Shown: positions 31,591 to 38,148 of the stretch, in pieces
How positions within the stretch are numbered: the first letter of the stretch is position 1
Layout: each line of letters begins with the position of its first letter
Assembly: GCA_945872245.1 (NCBI GenBank)
Contig: CAMBZB010000013.1
Span: forward strand, 1-63,059
Length of the DNA stretch: 63,059 bases
Direction of reading: 5' to 3'
DNA from: Flavobacterium psychrophilum
GTDB taxonomy: Bacteria > Bacteroidota > Bacteroidia > Flavobacteriales > Flavobacteriaceae
Program-made: the position numbers and the translations under genes
Notes under the pieces: model-generated
Databases searched by the model: none
What the model saw: the letters and a program-made list of their open reading frames with translations, nothing else
Told to the model about the DNA's origin: nothing

Positions 31591-31690
31591 TCAGTTGATT
31601 TTGGTTTTCAGAAGTTCTTACCAAAATAGTTTTTAAAGAAATAAGTAATAAAGTTATTTATTGCCCTTATTTTTGCCAAAACAATTCCTT

Positions 31691-33910
31691 TTGAAAACCA
31701 AAGTATTTCTTATCACGCCGCCGTTTACCCAACTGAATACTCCGTATCCTGCAACGGCTTATATTAAAGGTTTTCTGAATACTAAAAATATTTCCGCAAC
31801 ACAAGCGGATTTGGGTATCGAAGTAATTTTGGAATTATTTTCGAAAGAAGGGTTGCAAAATTTATTTAATCATACAATACCCAACACCCAACACCTAACA
31901 CCCAACACTCAAAGAATTCTCGCCCTAAAAGAAGAATACATCAAAACCATTGATTTGGTTATTGCATTTTTGCAAGGGAAAAACCCAACATTGGCACTCC
32001 AGATTTGTCAGGAAGATTTTTTGCCGGAGGCTTCTCGTTTCGCACAATTAGAAGAATTGGATTGGGCTTTCGGAACAATGGGAACTCAGGATAAGGCCAA
32101 GCATTTGGCGACTTTATACCTTGAAGATATTTCCGATTTTATTGTGGAATGTGTTGATGCTAATTTTGGGTTTAGTCGTTATGCGGAACGTTTGGGCAGA
32201 AGTGCGAATTCTTTCGACGAATTGTATGAAGCATTGCAAAATGAACCGACTTATATTGATGAACTGTTAATTTCAATTTTAGCAGAAAAAATCCGAACGA
32301 TTCAACCTGACTTATTCTTGATTTCTGTTCCGTTTCCTGGGAATTTATATGCTGCTTTTCGTTCCGCACAATGGGTTAAGAAACACCACCCAAATATCAA
32401 AATTGCCATGGGTGGTGGTTTTCCAAATACTGAATTACGCTCGCTTTCGGATTCTCGCGTTTTTGAGTTTTTTGATTATATCACGTTGGACGATGGCGAA
32501 TTGCCAATTCAATTGATAATTGATAATGAACACACGAGCGATAGCGAACTGGCGAAGCAATTGATAATTGAAAAGGAATTTAAAAGAACTTTTCTTTTAG
32601 AAAACGGCAAAGTAGTTTACAAAAACAATTCATTAAAACCAGATTACAAACAATCCGAAGTTGGGACGCCCGATTATTCCGATTTGTTTTTAGACAAATA
32701 CATTTCGGTTATCGAAATCGTGAATCCAATGCACCGCATGTGGAGCGACGGACGATGGAACAAACTCACGATGGCGCACGGTTGCTATTGGGGGAAATGT
32801 ACTTTTTGTGATATTTCATTGGATTATATCAAGATTTACGAACCCATCGCCGCCAATTTATTGTGCGATCGAATGGAGGAAATGATAGCGCAAACGGGTC
32901 AAAATGGTTTTCATTTTGTGGATGAAGCCGCTCCGCCAAAATTGATGCAAGCTTTGGCGCTTGAAATCCTTCGCAGAAAACTAGTGGTAACGTGGTGGAC
33001 TAACATTCGATTCGAGAAAAGTTTTTCTAAAGATTTATGTTTGTTGCTAAAAGCATCGGGTTGTATCGCCGTTTCTGGCGGTCTCGAAGTAGCCTCGGAC
33101 CGATTATTGGAATTGATAGACAAGGGTGTAACGGTAGAACAAGTGGCAAAAGTCACTCGAAATTTCACCGAAGCCGGAATCATGGTACATGCCTATTTGA
33201 TGTATGGTTATCCAACGCAAACCGTTCAAGAAACGGTAGACAGTCTCGAAATGGTGCGGCAATTGTTTGAAGTGGGCGTTTTGCAGTCTGGGTTTTGGCA
33301 CCAATTTGCGATGACGGCACACAGTCCGGTGGGAATGTTTCCGGAGAAATTTGGTGTTATTAAAGAAACTGAAGCCATTGGAACCTTTGCTAATAATGAC
33401 ATTAATTACGTAGACAAAACGGGAATCGACCACGATAAATTCAGTTTTGGATTAAAGAAATCTTTGTACAATTTTATGCACGGCATTTGCTTTGACTATG
33501 AATTGCAGGAATGGTTCGATTTTAAAATCCCGAAAACAAAAATCCCTCCCGATTTTATTTCCAATGCTTTAGAAGAGGAAGAGGATTTCAATATAAAACC
33601 AACAGCCAAAATTCTTTGGCTAGGAGGGAAGCCCTTTACAGAACATTTTACAAAATCGAAGAAAGGAAACAGCTGGGAAATGACGGCGTTGACTTTTCAT
33701 GATAAAAAGGAGAGTTTTACCATTCAAACCGGAAAAAATCAAGGCGAATGGTTGGTTGAAATGCTCGAAAAAATATCAGTTTCCAACTCTAAAATCTATT
33801 CCTTTCAGGAAATAAAATCCGATTTTGAAACTCATTTGGAGGATTTCGAATTGTTTTGGTATTCAAAGGCAGTTGTAACTTTGAGGTGTAACAAACTGCT
33901 AATCATCTAG
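31691..33910 (+). CDS. B12-binding domain radical SAM protein
   Basis: A 739-residue protein. I start at TTG 31691 (LKTKVFLITPPFTQLNTPYP), because TATTTTTG at 31668-31675 looks like its -7 box and the family begins there; a start at 31661 would precede transcription. The N-terminal region includes a cobalamin-binding-like segment (PDLFLISVPFPGNLYAAFRS to IKIAMGGGFPN). The radical SAM cluster motif is HGCYWGKCTFCD (CX4CX2C), then FVDEAAPPKLM, SGGLEVASDRLLELIDKGVT and YLMYGYPTQTVQETVD. Substrate unknown. Two repeat tracts (31871-31910, 32509-32577) are read in frame. The last residues (TLRCNKLLII) look abnormal beside the decayed copy at 37561-37758 (TLRDFGLLVL), suggesting the 3' end was altered. 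Confidence 0.88.
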   Translation: MKTKVFLITPPFTQLNTPYPATAYIKGFLNTKNISATQADLGIEVILELFSKEGLQNLFNHTIPNTQHLTPNTQRILALKEEYIKTIDLVIAFLQGKNPTLALQICQEDFLPEASRFAQLEELDWAFGTMGTQDKAKHLATLYLEDISDFIVECVDANFGFSRYAERLGRSANSFDELYEALQNEPTYIDELLISILAEKIRTIQPDLFLISVPFPGNLYAAFRSAQWVKKHHPNIKIAMGGGFPNTELRSLSDSRVFEFFDYITLDDGELPIQLIIDNEHTSDSELAKQLIIEKEFKRTFLLENGKVVYKNNSLKPDYKQSEVGTPDYSDLFLDKYISVIEIVNPMHRMWSDGRWNKLTMAHGCYWGKCTFCDISLDYIKIYEPIAANLLCDRMEEMIAQTGQNGFHFVDEAAPPKLMQALALEILRRKLVVTWWTNIRFEKSFSKDLCLLLKASGCIAVSGGLEVASDRLLELIDKGVTVEQVAKVTRNFTEAGIMVHAYLMYGYPTQTVQETVDSLEMVRQLFEVGVLQSGFWHQFAMTAHSPVGMFPEKFGVIKETEAIGTFANNDINYVDKTGIDHDKFSFGLKKSLYNFMHGICFDYELQEWFDFKIPKTKIPPDFISNALEEEEDFNIKPTAKILWLGGKPFTEHFTKSKKGNSWEMTALTFHDKKESFTIQTGKNQGEWLVEMLEKISVSNSKIYSFQEIKSDFETHLEDFELFWYSKAVVTLRCNKLLII
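31871..31910. repeat. CCCAACA tandem tract inside the radical SAM gene
   Basis: The sequence catacaatacccaacaccca then acacctaacacccaacactc is read in frame as HTIPNTQHLTPNTQ, between two ordinary helical segments. The unit is about 8-9 nt. Confidence 0.8.
32509..32577. repeat. TTGATAATT tracts inside the radical SAM gene
   Basis: Two short runs, caattgataattgataatga near 32511 and caattgataattgaaaag near 32559, encode IQLIIDNE and KQLIIEKE on either side of an acgagcgatagcgaactggc stretch. The same unit as the non-coding tract at 3811 is used, but in the reading frame that avoids its stop codons. Confidence 0.65.
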
Positions 33911-33927
33911 ATTATTTATTGAAATAT

Positions 33928-33957
33928 TTTGAAATTTAAAAAAAATATTTACTTTTG
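33928..33957 (+). promoter_or_regulatory. Promoter of the six-gene redox operon
   Basis: TTTG (33928-33931), an 18-nt spacer and TACTTTTG (33950-33957) begin 18 bp after the radical SAM stop. The predicted transcript start near 33962 supports ATG 33991 for the first gene. Confidence 0.65.
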
Positions 33958-33990
33958 AAAAGTTTATTTTTACTATTTCAAATATATCAA

Positions 33991-34506
33991 ATGAAACAAT
34001 TCTGGTTATTGCTCTTTATTTTTTTTAGTGCTCTTTTACAAGCACAAGATAAAACTGTTTTTGATGTTGCTCGAAAAGGTACCATGTCAGAAATCAAAGC
34101 AGTCTATGATAAGGATAAAAGTGTTGTTAATGCTATTGATGAAAAGGGTTCAAGCATGTTAATTCTGGCTTGCTACCGAGGAAACCATGATGTCGCAAAA
34201 TTTTTAATTGAGAATGGAGCCGATTTGAATTATGTTTCTGTAAATGGAACTGCTTTAATGGCTTGTGTTTTTAAAAGTGAGTTTGAATTGGTTGACGAAT
34301 TAATAAGTAAAAAGACTAACGTTGATTTGACTGATGGCAATGGTATGACAGCTTTGATGCTAGCCGTTCAATTTACAAATGTTGAAATGGTCAAAAAATT
34401 AGTTTCTGCGGGAGCGAATAAAGCATTAAAATGCAAACAAGATAAAACAGCTTTTGAATATGCCGCTTTTTCTGGTAATGAACAGATTATTCACATACTT
34501 AAATAA
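33991..34506 (+). CDS. Exported ankyrin-repeat protein
   Basis: A 171-residue protein from ATG 33991 (MKQFWLLLFIFFSALLQAQD), with a signal peptide ending at LQAQ. The mature part is about four ankyrin repeats: SSMLILACYRGNHDVAKFLI, GTALMACVFKSEFELVDELI, GMTALMLAVQFTNVEMVKKL and TAFEYAAFSGNEQIIHILK. It is likely a periplasmic binding or scaffold protein. It is the first gene of the operon; the DOMON gene follows after 6 bp. Similar small periplasmic ankyrin proteins accompany redox or catalase genes in other bacteria, which is weak support for a role with the downstream cytochromes. Confidence 0.85.
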   Translation: MKQFWLLLFIFFSALLQAQDKTVFDVARKGTMSEIKAVYDKDKSVVNAIDEKGSSMLILACYRGNHDVAKFLIENGADLNYVSVNGTALMACVFKSEFELVDELISKKTNVDLTDGNGMTALMLAVQFTNVEMVKKLVSAGANKALKCKQDKTAFEYAAFSGNEQIIHILK

Positions 34507-34512
34507 CAAAGG

Positions 34513-35250
34513 ATGAAAAGAAAATTACAATTAATTGGATTACTATTTGCAACTAATTTTGGCTTTGCCCAATTTACAACTGGAGAAGTAGTTCTTAATG
34601 GAACATTTACTGCTAAAATTGACACTGATGCTAGTGGAGTGACCTTAACATTAAAAGGATCCAGTACCACGTATCTAGGGATTGGCTTTGGTGGCAGTAC
34701 TATGAGCACTGCAAGGGATATGTTTATTTGGAGCGATAATTCAAATAGAGATTATTCATCTAGTGGTCAAGGTACACCAACTGCAGATTCTGCGGCAAAT
34801 CAAAGTTGGACTGTTGCCGACAATGTTGTTTCGGGCATAAGAACCGTTATTGCAACACGAGCACTAGTATCAAGTGGAGATTTCACTTTTGCAAATAATA
34901 ACACCAACATTTCAATTATATGGGCACAAGGTTCCGGAACTAGTTTAAATTACCATAGCGCACGAGGAGCTGCTTCATTATCTAGAACAACACTTGGGTT
35001 AGAAGATTTTTCTTTAAACGCAACATCTATATATCCAAATCCTGCCTCGGGAGCATTTTATATCAAAACAAAAACTAATCTATCTAAAGTAAATCTTTAC
35101 AATCAAACAGGCGCGTTGGTGAGAACAATTAATGTTACTGACGATTCTAAAGAAGTTGAACTGAGTGTAACTAATGTGCAAGCTGGAGTTTATTTTTTAG
35201 AATTACAAAATGATTCTGAAAAATCTTGGAAAAAAGTAATCGTTAATTAA
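34513..35250 (+). CDS. DOMON-domain protein with T9SS sorting domain
   Basis: A 245-residue secreted protein. Signal peptide ends FGFAQ (residue 20). Residues 22-160 resemble a DOMON domain: TYLGIGFGGSTMSTARDMFI and, near the end, SLNYHSARGAASL. In DOMON cytochromes heme is held by a Met and a His; Met64 and His148 lie at matching places, so b-heme binding is plausible. Residues 168-245 are a type A sorting domain (SIYPNPASGAFYIKTKTNLS to KKVIVN), so the protein is exported through T9SS and may be anchored at the surface. Second gene of the operon with a CXXCH lipoprotein and YceI. Confidence 0.82.
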   Translation: MKRKLQLIGLLFATNFGFAQFTTGEVVLNGTFTAKIDTDASGVTLTLKGSSTTYLGIGFGGSTMSTARDMFIWSDNSNRDYSSSGQGTPTADSAANQSWTVADNVVSGIRTVIATRALVSSGDFTFANNNTNISIIWAQGSGTSLNYHSARGAASLSRTTLGLEDFSLNATSIYPNPASGAFYIKTKTNLSKVNLYNQTGALVRTINVTDDSKEVELSVTNVQAGVYFLELQNDSEKSWKKVIVN

Positions 35251-35307
35251 TTGCATTTCAATCTGTAATTCATAGCGTTTATTTAGTAGTGAACTCTTTT
35301 TTTAACT

Positions 35308-35694
35308 ATGGGTAAAAAATTTAAAATAGTAGCGATACTATTAGTTGTCCTAATTATAGGATTATTTTCTTATAATTATGTGATGACCTCAGGCGGAAGG
35401 GATTTAGAGAAAGAAACATCTGAGTTTAGTGTATCTGCAACAGCTATTTTTGGAGATTTTTCTGCTAATGCTGAAATGGCAACAAAAAAATATTTAAATA
35501 AAGCGGTTGAGATTACAGGAAAAGTTACTAATATTACTGAAAATGTAATTACATTAGACGGAAAAGTTTCTTGTCAATTGCAAGTCTCAGAACAAATAAA
35601 CCTGGATAGTCAAGTAAAAATTAAAGGAAGAGTTACGGGTTATGACGACTTATTAGAAGAGTTAAAATTAGATCAATGTTTAATAGTAAAATAG
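35308..35694 (+). CDS. Membrane-anchored OB-fold protein (tRNA_anti-like)
   Basis: A 128-residue protein with one N-terminal hydrophobic segment (residues 6-24, KIVAILLVVLIIGLFSYNYV). The remainder is an OB-like domain: KYLNKAVEITGKVTNITENV, VSCQLQVSEQINLDSQVKIK, GRVTGYDDLLEELKLDQC. This resembles the tRNA_anti-like family found in Bacteroidota envelopes, where nucleic-acid binding is doubtful. It lies 57 bp after the DOMON gene and 8 bp before the DUF5777 gene. Confidence 0.78.
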   Translation: MGKKFKIVAILLVVLIIGLFSYNYVMTSGGRDLEKETSEFSVSATAIFGDFSANAEMATKKYLNKAVEITGKVTNITENVITLDGKVSCQLQVSEQINLDSQVKIKGRVTGYDDLLEELKLDQCLIVK

Positions 35695-35702
35695 AATTAT
35701 AA

Positions 35703-36572
35703 ATGAATTTATCTAAAATTGCGTTCTCATTGTTCTTTCTTTTTTTCTTTAGTATCACTAATGCACAAGATGATTTATTCAAAGAGTTAGATACAGATAC
35801 AATTCCTAAAAAAGAAATTGAAACAGCTGCTTTCAAAGGATTGCAAATTTGTAATATGCAATCGACAAAAATGACTTCAAAAGGCGAGTGGTATATGATT
35901 GTTTCTCACCGTTTTGGTGATTTAACCAAAGGGTTTGATAATTTTTTTGGATTGGATGATGCCAACACAGAAATTGGCGGTATTTATGGCTTAACCAATT
36001 GGTTGTCTCTGGGGGGGTCAAGACACACTTTGAATAAAATTTATGAATTAACAGCCAAATACAAATTGGCCAATCAAATAAAAGAGGGTTTTCCTGTTAC
36101 TATTGTGGGTTATAATACGATGGATATTAATAGTAAATTAGATAAATATTTACTACCTGGTTTAGAATTCAATAATCGATTGGCCTTTTCAACACAAGTA
36201 TTGGTTTCCAGAAAATTTTCTGAATCTTTTTCTTTTCAATTAAATCCCATTTATATTCACAAAAATTTATACGAATTCGGGTTGGAAGAAAAAAACGATT
36301 TTTTTATAGGTTCAGGAGCGCGATATAAAATTGCAAAACGAATGAGCATCAATCTTGAATATGCTGCTAGATTAAATAAAATTCAAGGCAATAGTTCTAC
36401 ATTTCAAAACCCGCTCACTGTTGGTTTAGATATTGAAACTGGTGGTCACGTTTTTCAATTGGTATTCTCGAACAGTCAAGCCTTAAATGATGTAGCCTTT
36501 TTGTCAAAACCCGCAGGCGATTGGTCAGGAGGTCCCATTTATTTTGGATTTAATTTGTATCGAGTTTTTTAA
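35703..36572 (+). CDS. DUF5777 family beta-barrel protein
   Basis: A 289-residue protein with signal peptide MNLSKIAFSLFFLFFFSITN (cut after AQ). The mature part is an outer-membrane barrel: FKGLQICNMQSTKMTSKGEW, SHRFGDLTKGFDNFFGLDDA, then GLTNWLSLGGSRHTLNKIYE, and a terminal aromatic (YRVF). The pattern SHRFG....GLD.AN...G..YGL is what I associate with DUF5777. It may be the outer-membrane channel of the operon, letting the cytochrome and the surface DOMON protein exchange electrons or ligands; this is inference. Confidence 0.82.
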   Translation: MNLSKIAFSLFFLFFFSITNAQDDLFKELDTDTIPKKEIETAAFKGLQICNMQSTKMTSKGEWYMIVSHRFGDLTKGFDNFFGLDDANTEIGGIYGLTNWLSLGGSRHTLNKIYELTAKYKLANQIKEGFPVTIVGYNTMDINSKLDKYLLPGLEFNNRLAFSTQVLVSRKFSESFSFQLNPIYIHKNLYEFGLEEKNDFFIGSGARYKIAKRMSINLEYAARLNKIQGNSSTFQNPLTVGLDIETGGHVFQLVFSNSQALNDVAFLSKPAGDWSGGPIYFGFNLYRVF

Positions 36573-36591
36573 ATTAATAAAATAATTAAAC

Positions 36592-36966
36592 ATGAAAAAA
36601 GTAATTGTGTTATTAATGATATTGTCTATTAGTTCTATTTTCACCTCTTGCGAGTCAGCTACATATTGTGATATTTCGCCGTATGTTGCTAAACCTACTT
36701 TTAATGCAAATATTGGCCCTATAGTTCGTTCAACTTGCGCTAGTTGTCATTCTGGAGGAAAACAATATCCTGACTTGGAGAATTATGTACAAGTGAAACT
36801 TGCTGCTGAGTTTGGAAGTTTACTTTGCAGAATAGATCAATCTAAATCTTGCGGTGCAATTATGCCTCAATCCGGACCAATGCCTGAATGTACAATTGAT
36901 ATGTTTAATCGTTGGGCCACCCCCATAACCACCGAACCACCAACGGAAGCATATTTAGAAAATTAA
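36592..36966 (+). CDS. c-type cytochrome-like lipoprotein
   Basis: A 124-residue protein. Lipobox FTSC places the lipidated Cys at residue 20. The heme-attachment motif CASCH is at 49-53, within IGPIVRSTCASCHSGGKQYP, and a candidate axial Met is Met91 (GAIMPQSGP). This makes a small monoheme cytochrome tethered to a membrane. Four further Cys (26, 79, 87, 100) could form disulfides. It lies between the DUF5777 barrel gene and yceI-like gene, with 19 and 11 bp gaps, so it is co-expressed with them. Confidence 0.85.
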   Translation: MKKVIVLLMILSISSIFTSCESATYCDISPYVAKPTFNANIGPIVRSTCASCHSGGKQYPDLENYVQVKLAAEFGSLLCRIDQSKSCGAIMPQSGPMPECTIDMFNRWATPITTEPPTEAYLEN

Positions 36967-36977
36967 CTCTTAATAAA

Positions 36978-37526
36978 ATGAAAAAGAATATTTTTATACT
37001 TGGTTGTGTTTTATTAAGCACATTCGGTTTTGCCCAAAAAATGATTACTCGTTCAGGTGAAATTAAATTTGAAGCATCAATGCCAGCTTTCGAGGAAATT
37101 GCCGCCAAGAATAATACGGTTTCTTGTATTTTTGATTTGTCCACAGGCGAAATTGCTGCCTTGGCATTGGTAAAAGCATTTCGATTTAAAGTGCCTTTAA
37201 TGGAAGAGCATTTTAATGAAAATTACATTGAAAGTGATCAATTTCCGAAAGCAACATTCAAAGGCAAAGTTGCTAATTTTGATGTTTCTAAAGTAGCATC
37301 AGGGAAAGCTACTTTTGATGTGGAAGGCGATTTAACTTTACACGGAGTTTCTAAAAAAGTGAAAACCAAAATGACTTTTGTACAATCGGGAGAAAAATTA
37401 ATTTCAACTTGTACATTTAAAGTAAAACCCATTGATTTTAATATAAAAATCCCTTCAATAGTTAAGAGTAAAATAACAGAAACCGTTGAAGTGAATTTGA
37501 AATTTGAATTAGAGAAGAAATCCTAA
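36978..37526 (+). CDS. YceI family periplasmic protein
   Basis: A 182-residue protein from ATG 36978 (MKKNIFILGCVLLSTFGFAQ, signal peptide). YceI features are GEIKFEASMPAFEEIAAKNN, the FNENYIESDQFPKATFKGKV motif and FDVEGDLTLHGVSKKVKTKM. YceI lipocalin-like proteins bind isoprenoid chains, including quinones, and often sit beside cytochromes. In this operon it could bring a quinol to the cytochrome. Last gene of the operon; a decayed piece of the radical SAM gene begins 34 bp later. Confidence 0.9.
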   Translation: MKKNIFILGCVLLSTFGFAQKMITRSGEIKFEASMPAFEEIAAKNNTVSCIFDLSTGEIAALALVKAFRFKVPLMEEHFNENYIESDQFPKATFKGKVANFDVSKVASGKATFDVEGDLTLHGVSKKVKTKMTFVQSGEKLISTCTFKVKPIDFNIKIPSIVKSKITETVEVNLKFELEKKS

Positions 37527-37560: not shown

Positions 37561-37758
37561 CTGTTTACTATTCAAACTGCGAAAAATTAAGGATAATGGC
37601 AGATGCAAATTCTTGAAAAGATTTTGGTTTCTAAATCTAGAATCCATTCATTTCAAGAAATTAAAGCTGATTTCGAAACCAATTTTCGGGATTTCGAATT
37701 GTTTTGGTATTCAAAACCTGTGAATACTTTGAGAGATTTTGGCTTGCTTGTGTTGTAA
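37561..37758 (+). pseudogene. Decayed second copy of the radical SAM gene 3' end
   Basis: Sixty-six codons match the end of the 31691-33910 gene in one frame: LFTIQTAKN, stop, G, stop, W, then MQILEKILVSKSRIHSFQEI, KADFETNFRDFELFWYSKPV and NTLRDFGLLVL before TAA. Two codons of the intact gene (CAA, GAA) are TAA here. A block of 27 bases is identical (33841-33867 and 37689-37715). The rest is diverged. The fragment flanks the redox operon on the side opposite the intact gene. Confidence 0.9.
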
Positions 37759-37776
37759 AAAAACGATAATTTCATT

Positions 37777-38148
37777 CCAGTTTTTTAGATAATGAAGCAA
37801 AATGGACGTCGTGCTAGTTTGTCCATATTCTATTTCTTGAAGTGCCTTCCTGGCAAATATTGCGTGAGGAGTATTGTATGAAGGGATTATAATCTAATGC
37901 CATTCGCGAGTCTTTTTTGACAATTCTGTTCCTTTTTATTTAATGAATTGAAAAACTACAAATTGAAGGAGGCTATCAATTTTAGCTTCCTCTTTTTTTT
38001 GCTTTTTTCCGGTTCCAAAACCCCAAGCATTTACCAATAGATAGGCTTTGGGGTCAAAAGCGCCGTTAGTGATTTCCATACTTTTTAGGCTTTGTACTGA
38101 TTTGGAAAGTAGTATGGGATTTTTTGAAAGTTTTAGCCTAGGATAAAA
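37777..38148 (-). pseudogene. Probable decayed gene, family unknown
   Basis: On the minus strand one frame reads FYPRLKLSKNPILLSKSVQS, LKSMEITNGAFDPKAYLLVN and AWGFGTGKKQKKEEAKIDSL, ends at TAA (37938-37936), and goes on in the same frame, after a second stop, as IIIPSYNTPHAIFARKALQE and IEYGQTSTTSILLHYLKN. The composition looks like real protein, but I recognise no family. The MEITNGAF piece alone (38079-37936, 47 residues) could be an intact small gene. Together with the neighbouring remnants it makes 37.56-38.25 kb a gene graveyard. A T-rich hairpin at about 37967-37998 might terminate transcription on the plus strand. Confidence 0.4.

Follow-up and report, generated by a model that had tools for sequence, protein, structure and literature searches.

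According to excerpts of PMC9113575, the YceI-family gene bcnA of Burkholderia and other bacteria generally occurs in linkage with a gene for cytochrome b561, and membrane lipid peroxidation is enhanced in the mutants. Excerpts of another study report DUF2271 as an ApbE substrate with the motif [ST]GA[ST] (PMC8238504). CYBDOM proteins, composed of DOMON and cytochrome b561, have been connected with iron homeostasis or the reduction of ferric iron (PMC10784544 and PMC10784552, also in excerpt). Here we analyse a six-gene cluster within a 63,059-nucleotide stretch of Flavobacterium psychrophilum DNA (contig CAMBZB010000013.1), hereafter the window. The cluster encodes, in this order, an ankyrin-repeat protein, a DOMON protein sorted by the type IX secretion system (T9SS), a membrane-anchored OB-fold protein, a DUF5777 barrel, a CXXCH lipoprotein and a YceI protein. 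Neither a description of this gene set nor the term DUF5777 was found in a search of an open-access library of 5.39 million papers, a scope that leaves subscription journals and bioRxiv largely outside.

We think, with a probability of about 0.6, that these genes belong to a modular system for one-electron transfer in the cell envelope of Bacteroidota, with a core and an optional surface carrier. The core, found widely across the phylum, would consist of a 12-stranded DUF5777 barrel, a lipoprotein carrier at the outer membrane and, in most cases, a YceI lipocalin that is expected to bind an isoprenoid quinone. The carrier would usually be a monohaem c-type cytochrome, replaced in some lineages by a Rieske or cupredoxin protein. 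The surface part would be a T9SS-exported protein with a single redox cofactor. In the window this is a probable haem-b DOMON, accompanied by a periplasmic ankyrin; close relatives have a DUF2271-like protein, probably a flavoprotein, and other Flavobacteriaceae a cupredoxin. A preliminary description of the window had already proposed an uncharacterised, conserved envelope redox system, and this proposal is supported by the co-occurrence of the families, by the ligands and fold of the DOMON and by the replacement of the carrier.

Neighbourhood of DUF5777 and replacement of the carrier

Two sets of loci (numbered L) were compared. The close set comprises the best 80 of 583 loci from a scan of genome contigs with the DUF5777 alignment, all titled as Flavobacteriales genera or as Flavobacteriia, Flavobacteriaceae or Bacteroidetes bacteria, bar one Chitinophaga pinensis. 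PF19089 (DUF5777) matched 115 of 296 sampled Bacteroidota genomes. For the phylum set we chose 60 regions across the score range of the listed matches; 58 had a recognised barrel (L118 and L140 were dropped) and 57 were fully flanked, that is, with 3 kb on both sides of the barrel. Gene content was called by open reading frame (ORF) finding and profiles, and the cytochrome profile was also run against all frames of at least 40 residues. A motif-only test for the cytochrome was insensitive, as 20 of the 42 loci that failed it have a profile-found cytochrome. Counts of OB, ankyrin, DOMON, Rieske and cupredoxin proteins rest on ORF calls.

Among the 69 fully flanked close loci, ORF calls gave YceI in 69, cytochrome in 61, OB in 47, ankyrin in 31 and DOMON in 31. 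The eight loci missed do carry a cytochrome frame between barrel and YceI, and by the frame-level profile a cytochrome stands beside DUF5777 in 69 of 69. It is present in 79 of all 80 close loci, the exception (L012) ending 126 bp past the barrel. The same genes surround DUF5777 in altered orders and strands, the exact order of the window occurring in L006 and L017 and, with missed frames counted, also in L011 and L015. In the 57 phylum loci, ORF calls gave YceI in 46, cytochrome in 41, OB in 6 and ankyrin-DOMON in 1; adding the missed frames (cytochrome in L126, L132, L158 and L170, YceI in L147) raises the first two to 47 and 45. Ten phylum loci have no YceI within 3 kb, and the nine of them searched in the DUF5777 tree described below form two groups there. 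The top 30 matches (L081-L110) hold YceI in 24 and cytochrome in 24, but these stretches are just 2.7-3.8 kb each, so that absences in them mean little. With order and membership varying in this way, a fixed six-gene system was rejected. Because of the phylum counts, the core is taken as the barrel and a carrier, usually with YceI, while OB, ankyrin and DOMON are lineage additions. Cytochrome, YceI and barrel form the commonest set throughout the phylum, and OB is found mainly in Flavobacteriales-type loci.

Genes at less than 3 kb and at more than 5 kb from DUF5777 were counted in 169 loci (895 kb near and 1077 kb far; ORF calls, slight undercounts). The near and far counts were 164 versus 2 for cytochrome, 156 versus 4 for YceI, 78 versus 0 for OB, 36 versus 0 for ankyrin and 34 versus 0 for DOMON. 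The profiles of Rieske (12 versus 2), cupredoxin (10 versus 0) and DUF2271-like proteins (8 versus 0) were trained on near proteins, and these ratios are therefore biased upward. As genomic background, YceI numbered 2-11 per genome (38 genomes), and Rieske proteins gave 31 matches and cupredoxins 39, each in 14 genomes. The adjacency of YceI and cytochrome to DUF5777 is not due to chance, and the association of DUF5777 with YceI, CXXCH and DOMON genes, as first described in the window, is conserved.

The profile found no cytochrome frame in twelve of the 57 phylum loci with full flanks. L120, which has none either, was excluded, its contig ending 564 bp beyond the barrel's far side. Seven of the twelve hold a Rieske protein, three a cupredoxin and two (L137, L154) none of the carrier classes. 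Rieske or cupredoxin proteins are thus found in 10/12 cytochrome-free versus 1/45 cytochrome-bearing loci (the cupredoxin of L139; Fisher p 1.6e-8, not corrected for kinship), a count that supersedes an ORF-call version (10/17 versus 1/41, p 3.6e-6). Pfam cut-offs were passed by the Rieske proteins of L017, L083 and L160 and, for plastocyanin/azurin, by 7 proteins. The DUF5777 tree, built by a quick method, has 110 rows (the window, L081-L170 and 23 of the 80 close loci, with L117 and L170 omitted for length). In it, Rieske loci without cytochrome are split among three places, the cupredoxin loci form a single group, and six changes occur among the three states. Rieske and cytochrome occur together in L016, L017, L058 and L087. 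The carrier beside DUF5777 is interchangeable, a finding that is new here. Since redox proteins of unrelated folds take each other's place next to a barrel that stays constant and, in most loci, a lipocalin, one-electron transfer is the best explanation, which suggests that the module passes electrons one at a time at the outer membrane.

The T9SS-tailed proteins beside the core vary as well, being DOMON (with ankyrin), DUF2271-like, cupredoxin or lamin-tail proteins. Of the 80 close loci, 31 hold a DOMON, 7 a DUF2271-like protein, 4 a cupredoxin, 3 a lamin-tail protein and 3 a Rieske protein; 34 hold none of these. DOMON and DUF2271-like loci are intermixed in the window's own clade of the tree (nine rows). 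The flavinylation motif [ST]GA[ST] is present in 8 of 9 DUF2271-like records, and ApbE adjoins the DUF2271-like protein in L003, L010, L013 and L058; such a substrate or ApbE is seen in relatives only, not among the six genes of the window searched with Pfam and NCBIfam. T9SS-tailed cupredoxins occur in L049, L064 and L088. The T9SS-tailed proteins of L057 and L078, with a weak lamin-tail match, run counter to this pattern. T9SS-tailed Temptin_C proteins with CXXCH directly follow the barrel in L162 and L165.

From the side of the DOMON, PF03351 was sought in 149 genomes of the family and matched in 17, in 10 over the cut-off. A window-type DOMON was present in 15 of the 18 loci fetched, with ankyrin adjacent in 14 of the 15 and DUF5777 within the same ~15 kb in nine. 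Among the genomes of the other six, DUF5777 lies elsewhere in three and was not seen in the remaining three (completeness not given). Ankyrin adjoins DOMON in 35 of 37 relatives, the remaining two sitting at the locus end. Ankyrin and DOMON are a pair separable from DUF5777. The six loci without DUF5777 (L195, L197, L198, L201, L204 and L205; DOMON alone in L197) lie near a ~950-aa gene resembling, by eye, carbamoyl-phosphate synthase, and the whole cluster lies near the same gene in other genomes. L193, L194 and L202 keep a different, shorter DOMON, whose conserved neighbours are, by eye, a regulator of the MarR type and an NTF2-like protein.

The occurrence of ankyrin-DOMON without DUF5777, together with the coming and going of OB, is what one would expect of neighbouring envelope genes without a common function. 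However, YceI and cytochrome stay beside DUF5777 through changes of order and strand, and where the cytochrome is missing another carrier mostly replaces it, which makes the absence of a shared function highly improbable.

Predicted proteins of the window

The six ORFs are intact, on the + strand and in the same direction (33991-37526), with gaps of 6, 57, 8, 19 and 11 bp in gene order. These ORFs and the promoter read bear out the earlier picture of one promoter and six closely spaced envelope genes. Three earlier assignments likewise stand on the evidence given below: Met64 and His148 of the DOMON as candidate b-haem ligands, the monohaem CASCH lipoprotein and the YceI protein.

Table 1. Features of the cluster in window coordinates
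Feature	Position	Strand	Evidence
Promoter TTTG-N18-TACTTTTG	33928..33957	+	read from sequence
ANK, ankyrin-repeat protein with signal peptide	33991..34506	+	Pfam Ank_2 3.6e-25
DOM, DOMON with C-terminal type A T9SS sorting domain	34513..35250	+	PF03351, PF18962, TIGR04183 over cut-off
Met64 codon, candidate haem-b ligand	34702..34704	+	alignment
His148 codon, candidate haem-b ligand	34954..34956	+	alignment
T9SS sorting domain of DOM	35029..35244	+	
OB, N-terminally anchored (by eye) OB-fold protein, tRNA_anti-like	35308..35694	+	PF12869
BAR, DUF5777 outer-membrane beta-barrel, 12 strands predicted	35703..36572	+	PF19089 1.1e-82
CYT, predicted monohaem c-type cytochrome lipoprotein	36592..36966	+	lipobox C20, CASCH, Met91 conserved, n=141
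CASCH haem-attachment motif	36736..36750	+	sequence, conservation
YCE, secreted YceI-family lipocalin	36978..37526	+	PF04264 1.9e-15
Terminator-like hairpin and T run, 3' of cluster	37967..37991	+	pattern scan, weak

DOM scores 34.0 bits against a Pfam cut-off of 32.7. The T9SS sorting domain is present in all 41 rows of the DOMON alignment (A5), and Met64 is invariant in them. In a separate alignment of 34 relatives, window included and the 717-aa DOMON of L038 excluded, a Met lies at the place of Met64 or at most 2 residues off in 34/34, and a His lies in the segment of His148 in 34/34 (aligned column 91%). Residues 22-162 of the structure model match DOMON structures, and the model resembles haem-b DOMONs. 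A PDB sequence search with the DOMON part found no relative, just T9SS tails and a few weak matches. With the ligand pair conserved and the fold matched by the model, the window DOMON is probably a haem-b protein. The ankyrin protein has a signal peptide by eye and is thus predicted to be periplasmic.

Such a DOMON could be a surface metal reductase, comparable to the CYBDOM ferric reductases of plants, or a hemophore for metal or haem uptake, the barrel importing the product. The CYBDOM link to iron and the trio of extracytoplasmic function (ECF) sigma, FecR and TonB-receptor genes near the cluster in several loci agree with this function. However, FecR and receptor families are found in just 23 of 170 loci and may reflect local synteny, and the exchange of DOMON for flavin-motif or copper proteins is ill-suited to a hemophore. 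We consider this function unlikely.

In 141 aligned relatives of CYT, the haem Cys, Cys and His are conserved at 99, 100 and 99%, the following Met (Met91) at 95% and the lipobox Cys at 98%. No Pfam family matched over its cut-off (PF13442, 14.8 versus 27). A PDB search gave no clear relative (4rlr, E 0.065), and one odd row, P0257, probably drew its matches to Pin1. The cytochrome profile was built without rows P0257 and P0243. Cytochrome relatives in L138, L146, L148 and L162 have a C-x4-CH haem motif in place of CXXCH. YCE scores 58.0 bits against a cut-off of 23.7, and the profile built from 22 YceI rows has matches to BcnA (5ixh, E 2e-5) and BcnB (5ixg, E 5.5e-5).

This last match, and the linkage of YceI with a one-electron carrier in these loci, raise the possibility of lipid-peroxyl detoxification as in Burkholderia. 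A YceI-bound quinol would quench outer-membrane radicals, the cytochrome lipoprotein would recycle it in the place of the cytochrome b561 LcoA, and the surface carrier would be an extra. The linkage of bcnA to cytochrome b561 and the peroxidation in bcn mutants also speak for it. Nevertheless, an inner-membrane cytochrome b561 was not seen among the neighbours identified (no dedicated search was made), the barrel and T9SS carriers have no counterpart in the excerpts of PMC9113575, and ten phylum loci have no YceI. We regard it as possible, though on the unlikely side.

The barrel scores 277.5 against a cut-off of 23.1. Its model has 12 strands (predicted local distance difference test score 88.6, predicted template modelling score 0.81) and resembles the narrow channels KdgM and NanC; a PDB sequence search returned only one weak match to a designed barrel (E 0.088). 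L056, L066 and L072 hold two DUF5777-YceI copies each.

The preliminary description had seen here a possible T9SS-based analogue of porin-cytochrome conduits, in which barrel and surface protein could carry electrons or a ligand across the outer membrane. As a route for extracellular electron transfer, such a conduit would have the cytochrome in or against the barrel and the DOMON outside. Carriers are predicted on both sides of that membrane, those at the surface are of several cofactor types, and L138, L146 and L151, where YceI was not found, have NrfD, 4Fe-4S ferredoxin and further cytochrome c genes near the cytochrome-DUF5777 pair. Yet MtrB has 26 strands, and a KdgM/NanC-like barrel of 12 would be too narrow for a cytochrome. 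One haem per carrier would leave a gap across the membrane greater than the usual tunnelling distance. Moreover, a DOMON is near in just 31/80 close and 1/58 phylum loci, and ankyrin-DOMON also occurs without DUF5777. The analogy is thus weak, the least supported of the redox readings, and we consider such a conduit very unlikely.

The OB protein scores 37.3 against a cut-off of 23.5 for tRNA_anti-like, PF12869 matches 25/25 rows of its alignment (A6), and R31, E36, G71, G107, G111, D122 and Q123 are invariant. A CcmE-like haem chaperone was considered but is not favoured: in the PDB the profile matched best to 3f1z (E 0.007), which is a putative nucleic acid-binding lipoprotein, and no His stood out as conserved. 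This was judged from these two points, CcmE itself not being compared.

The promoter elements, TTTG at 33928-33931 and TACTTTTG at 33950-33957, fit the Bacteroidota -33/-7 consensus of Flavobacterium type. A scan for generic sigma-70 sites yielded 29 against 25.4 +/- 5.1 expected, which is not a clear excess, and so says nothing on this promoter. The ankyrin gene starts at the ATG at 33991, an alternative TTG (33955) falling within the promoter, and YceI at the ATG at 36978, an alternative TTG (36912) falling within the cytochrome gene. Terminator-type hairpins number 7 versus 4.9 expected in the stretch, weak support for the one listed. Upstream, 31661-33910 encodes a radical SAM protein of the B12-binding type, whose best NCBIfam match (PhpK family) scores far under cut-off; a relative lies directly 5' of the cluster in L006, L008, L009, L010 and L013. 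Downstream, 37564-37733 is a decayed partial copy of 33716-33885, the 3' end of that gene. The cluster is thus flanked by the B12/radical-SAM gene and the remnant of a second tail, and looks like one acquired by recombination. In other loci, a Crp/Fnr-type gene is near the cluster (24 loci, many of them Chryseobacterium, mostly just upstream; Pfam check on L021), or ECF sigma, FecR and TonB-receptor genes precede it (Pfam check on L018); neither neighbour shows regulation. A Lipoprotein_15 repeat protein (PF03640, unknown function) stands beside the core in L040, the locus scanned, with relatives in L072, L112, L139 and L153.

Proposed mechanism

In the scheme that we infer, the carriers would be occupied by haem, flavin mononucleotide or copper and YceI by quinone. 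The periplasmic carrier would keep the YceI-bound quinone, and hence the outer membrane, reduced; the barrel would let a small mediator or ligand through; and the surface carrier would trade electrons with something outside the cell. Reductive upkeep of the outer membrane through the YceI-bound quinone is our first choice, a surface reductase the second. It is tempting to go further, although we hold this extension to be tentative and rather improbable. The lipocalin and narrow barrel might work with any available one-electron protein, T9SS adding an exchangeable haem-b, flavin or copper carrier at the surface, and a diffusible mediator or a YceI-borne quinone might take electrons to the outside with no need of multihaem wires. 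Should the module prove to move electrons, a YceI subfamily and a common family of barrels would acquire a function, and haem, Fe-S, copper and perhaps flavin proteins would replace each other in one neighbourhood. Redox chemistry of Bacteroidota at or beyond the outer membrane would become directly testable.

Comparison with described systems

Like the BcnA-LcoA system (PMC9113575), this cluster has the gene of a YceI lipocalin linked with that of a haem protein, and both systems belong to the envelope. The partner here is a c-type lipoprotein, Rieske or cupredoxin protein, with a DUF5777 barrel and T9SS carriers in addition. Some relatives share with the flavinylated ApbE/DUF2271 or DUF3570 systems (excerpts of PMC8238504) an ApbE gene beside the DUF2271-like [ST]GA[ST] protein. 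In contrast, the window cluster has a DOMON and no ApbE, and the terms YceI, DUF5777, DOMON and type IX are absent from the main text of that article.

Conduits of the MtrCAB type, as we know them, also combine an outer-membrane barrel with a cytochrome. They differ from the present cluster, in which the barrel is predicted to have 12 strands, the cytochrome carries a single haem motif, a multihaem wire is absent and the surface protein is sorted by T9SS. Finally, the DOM model shares the DOMON fold with the cytochrome domain of cellobiose dehydrogenase and ethylbenzene dehydrogenase gamma, and its candidate Met and His ligands with these and with the CYBDOM proteins. Unlike them all, DOM is predicted to be a stand-alone T9SS cargo accompanied by a periplasmic ankyrin.

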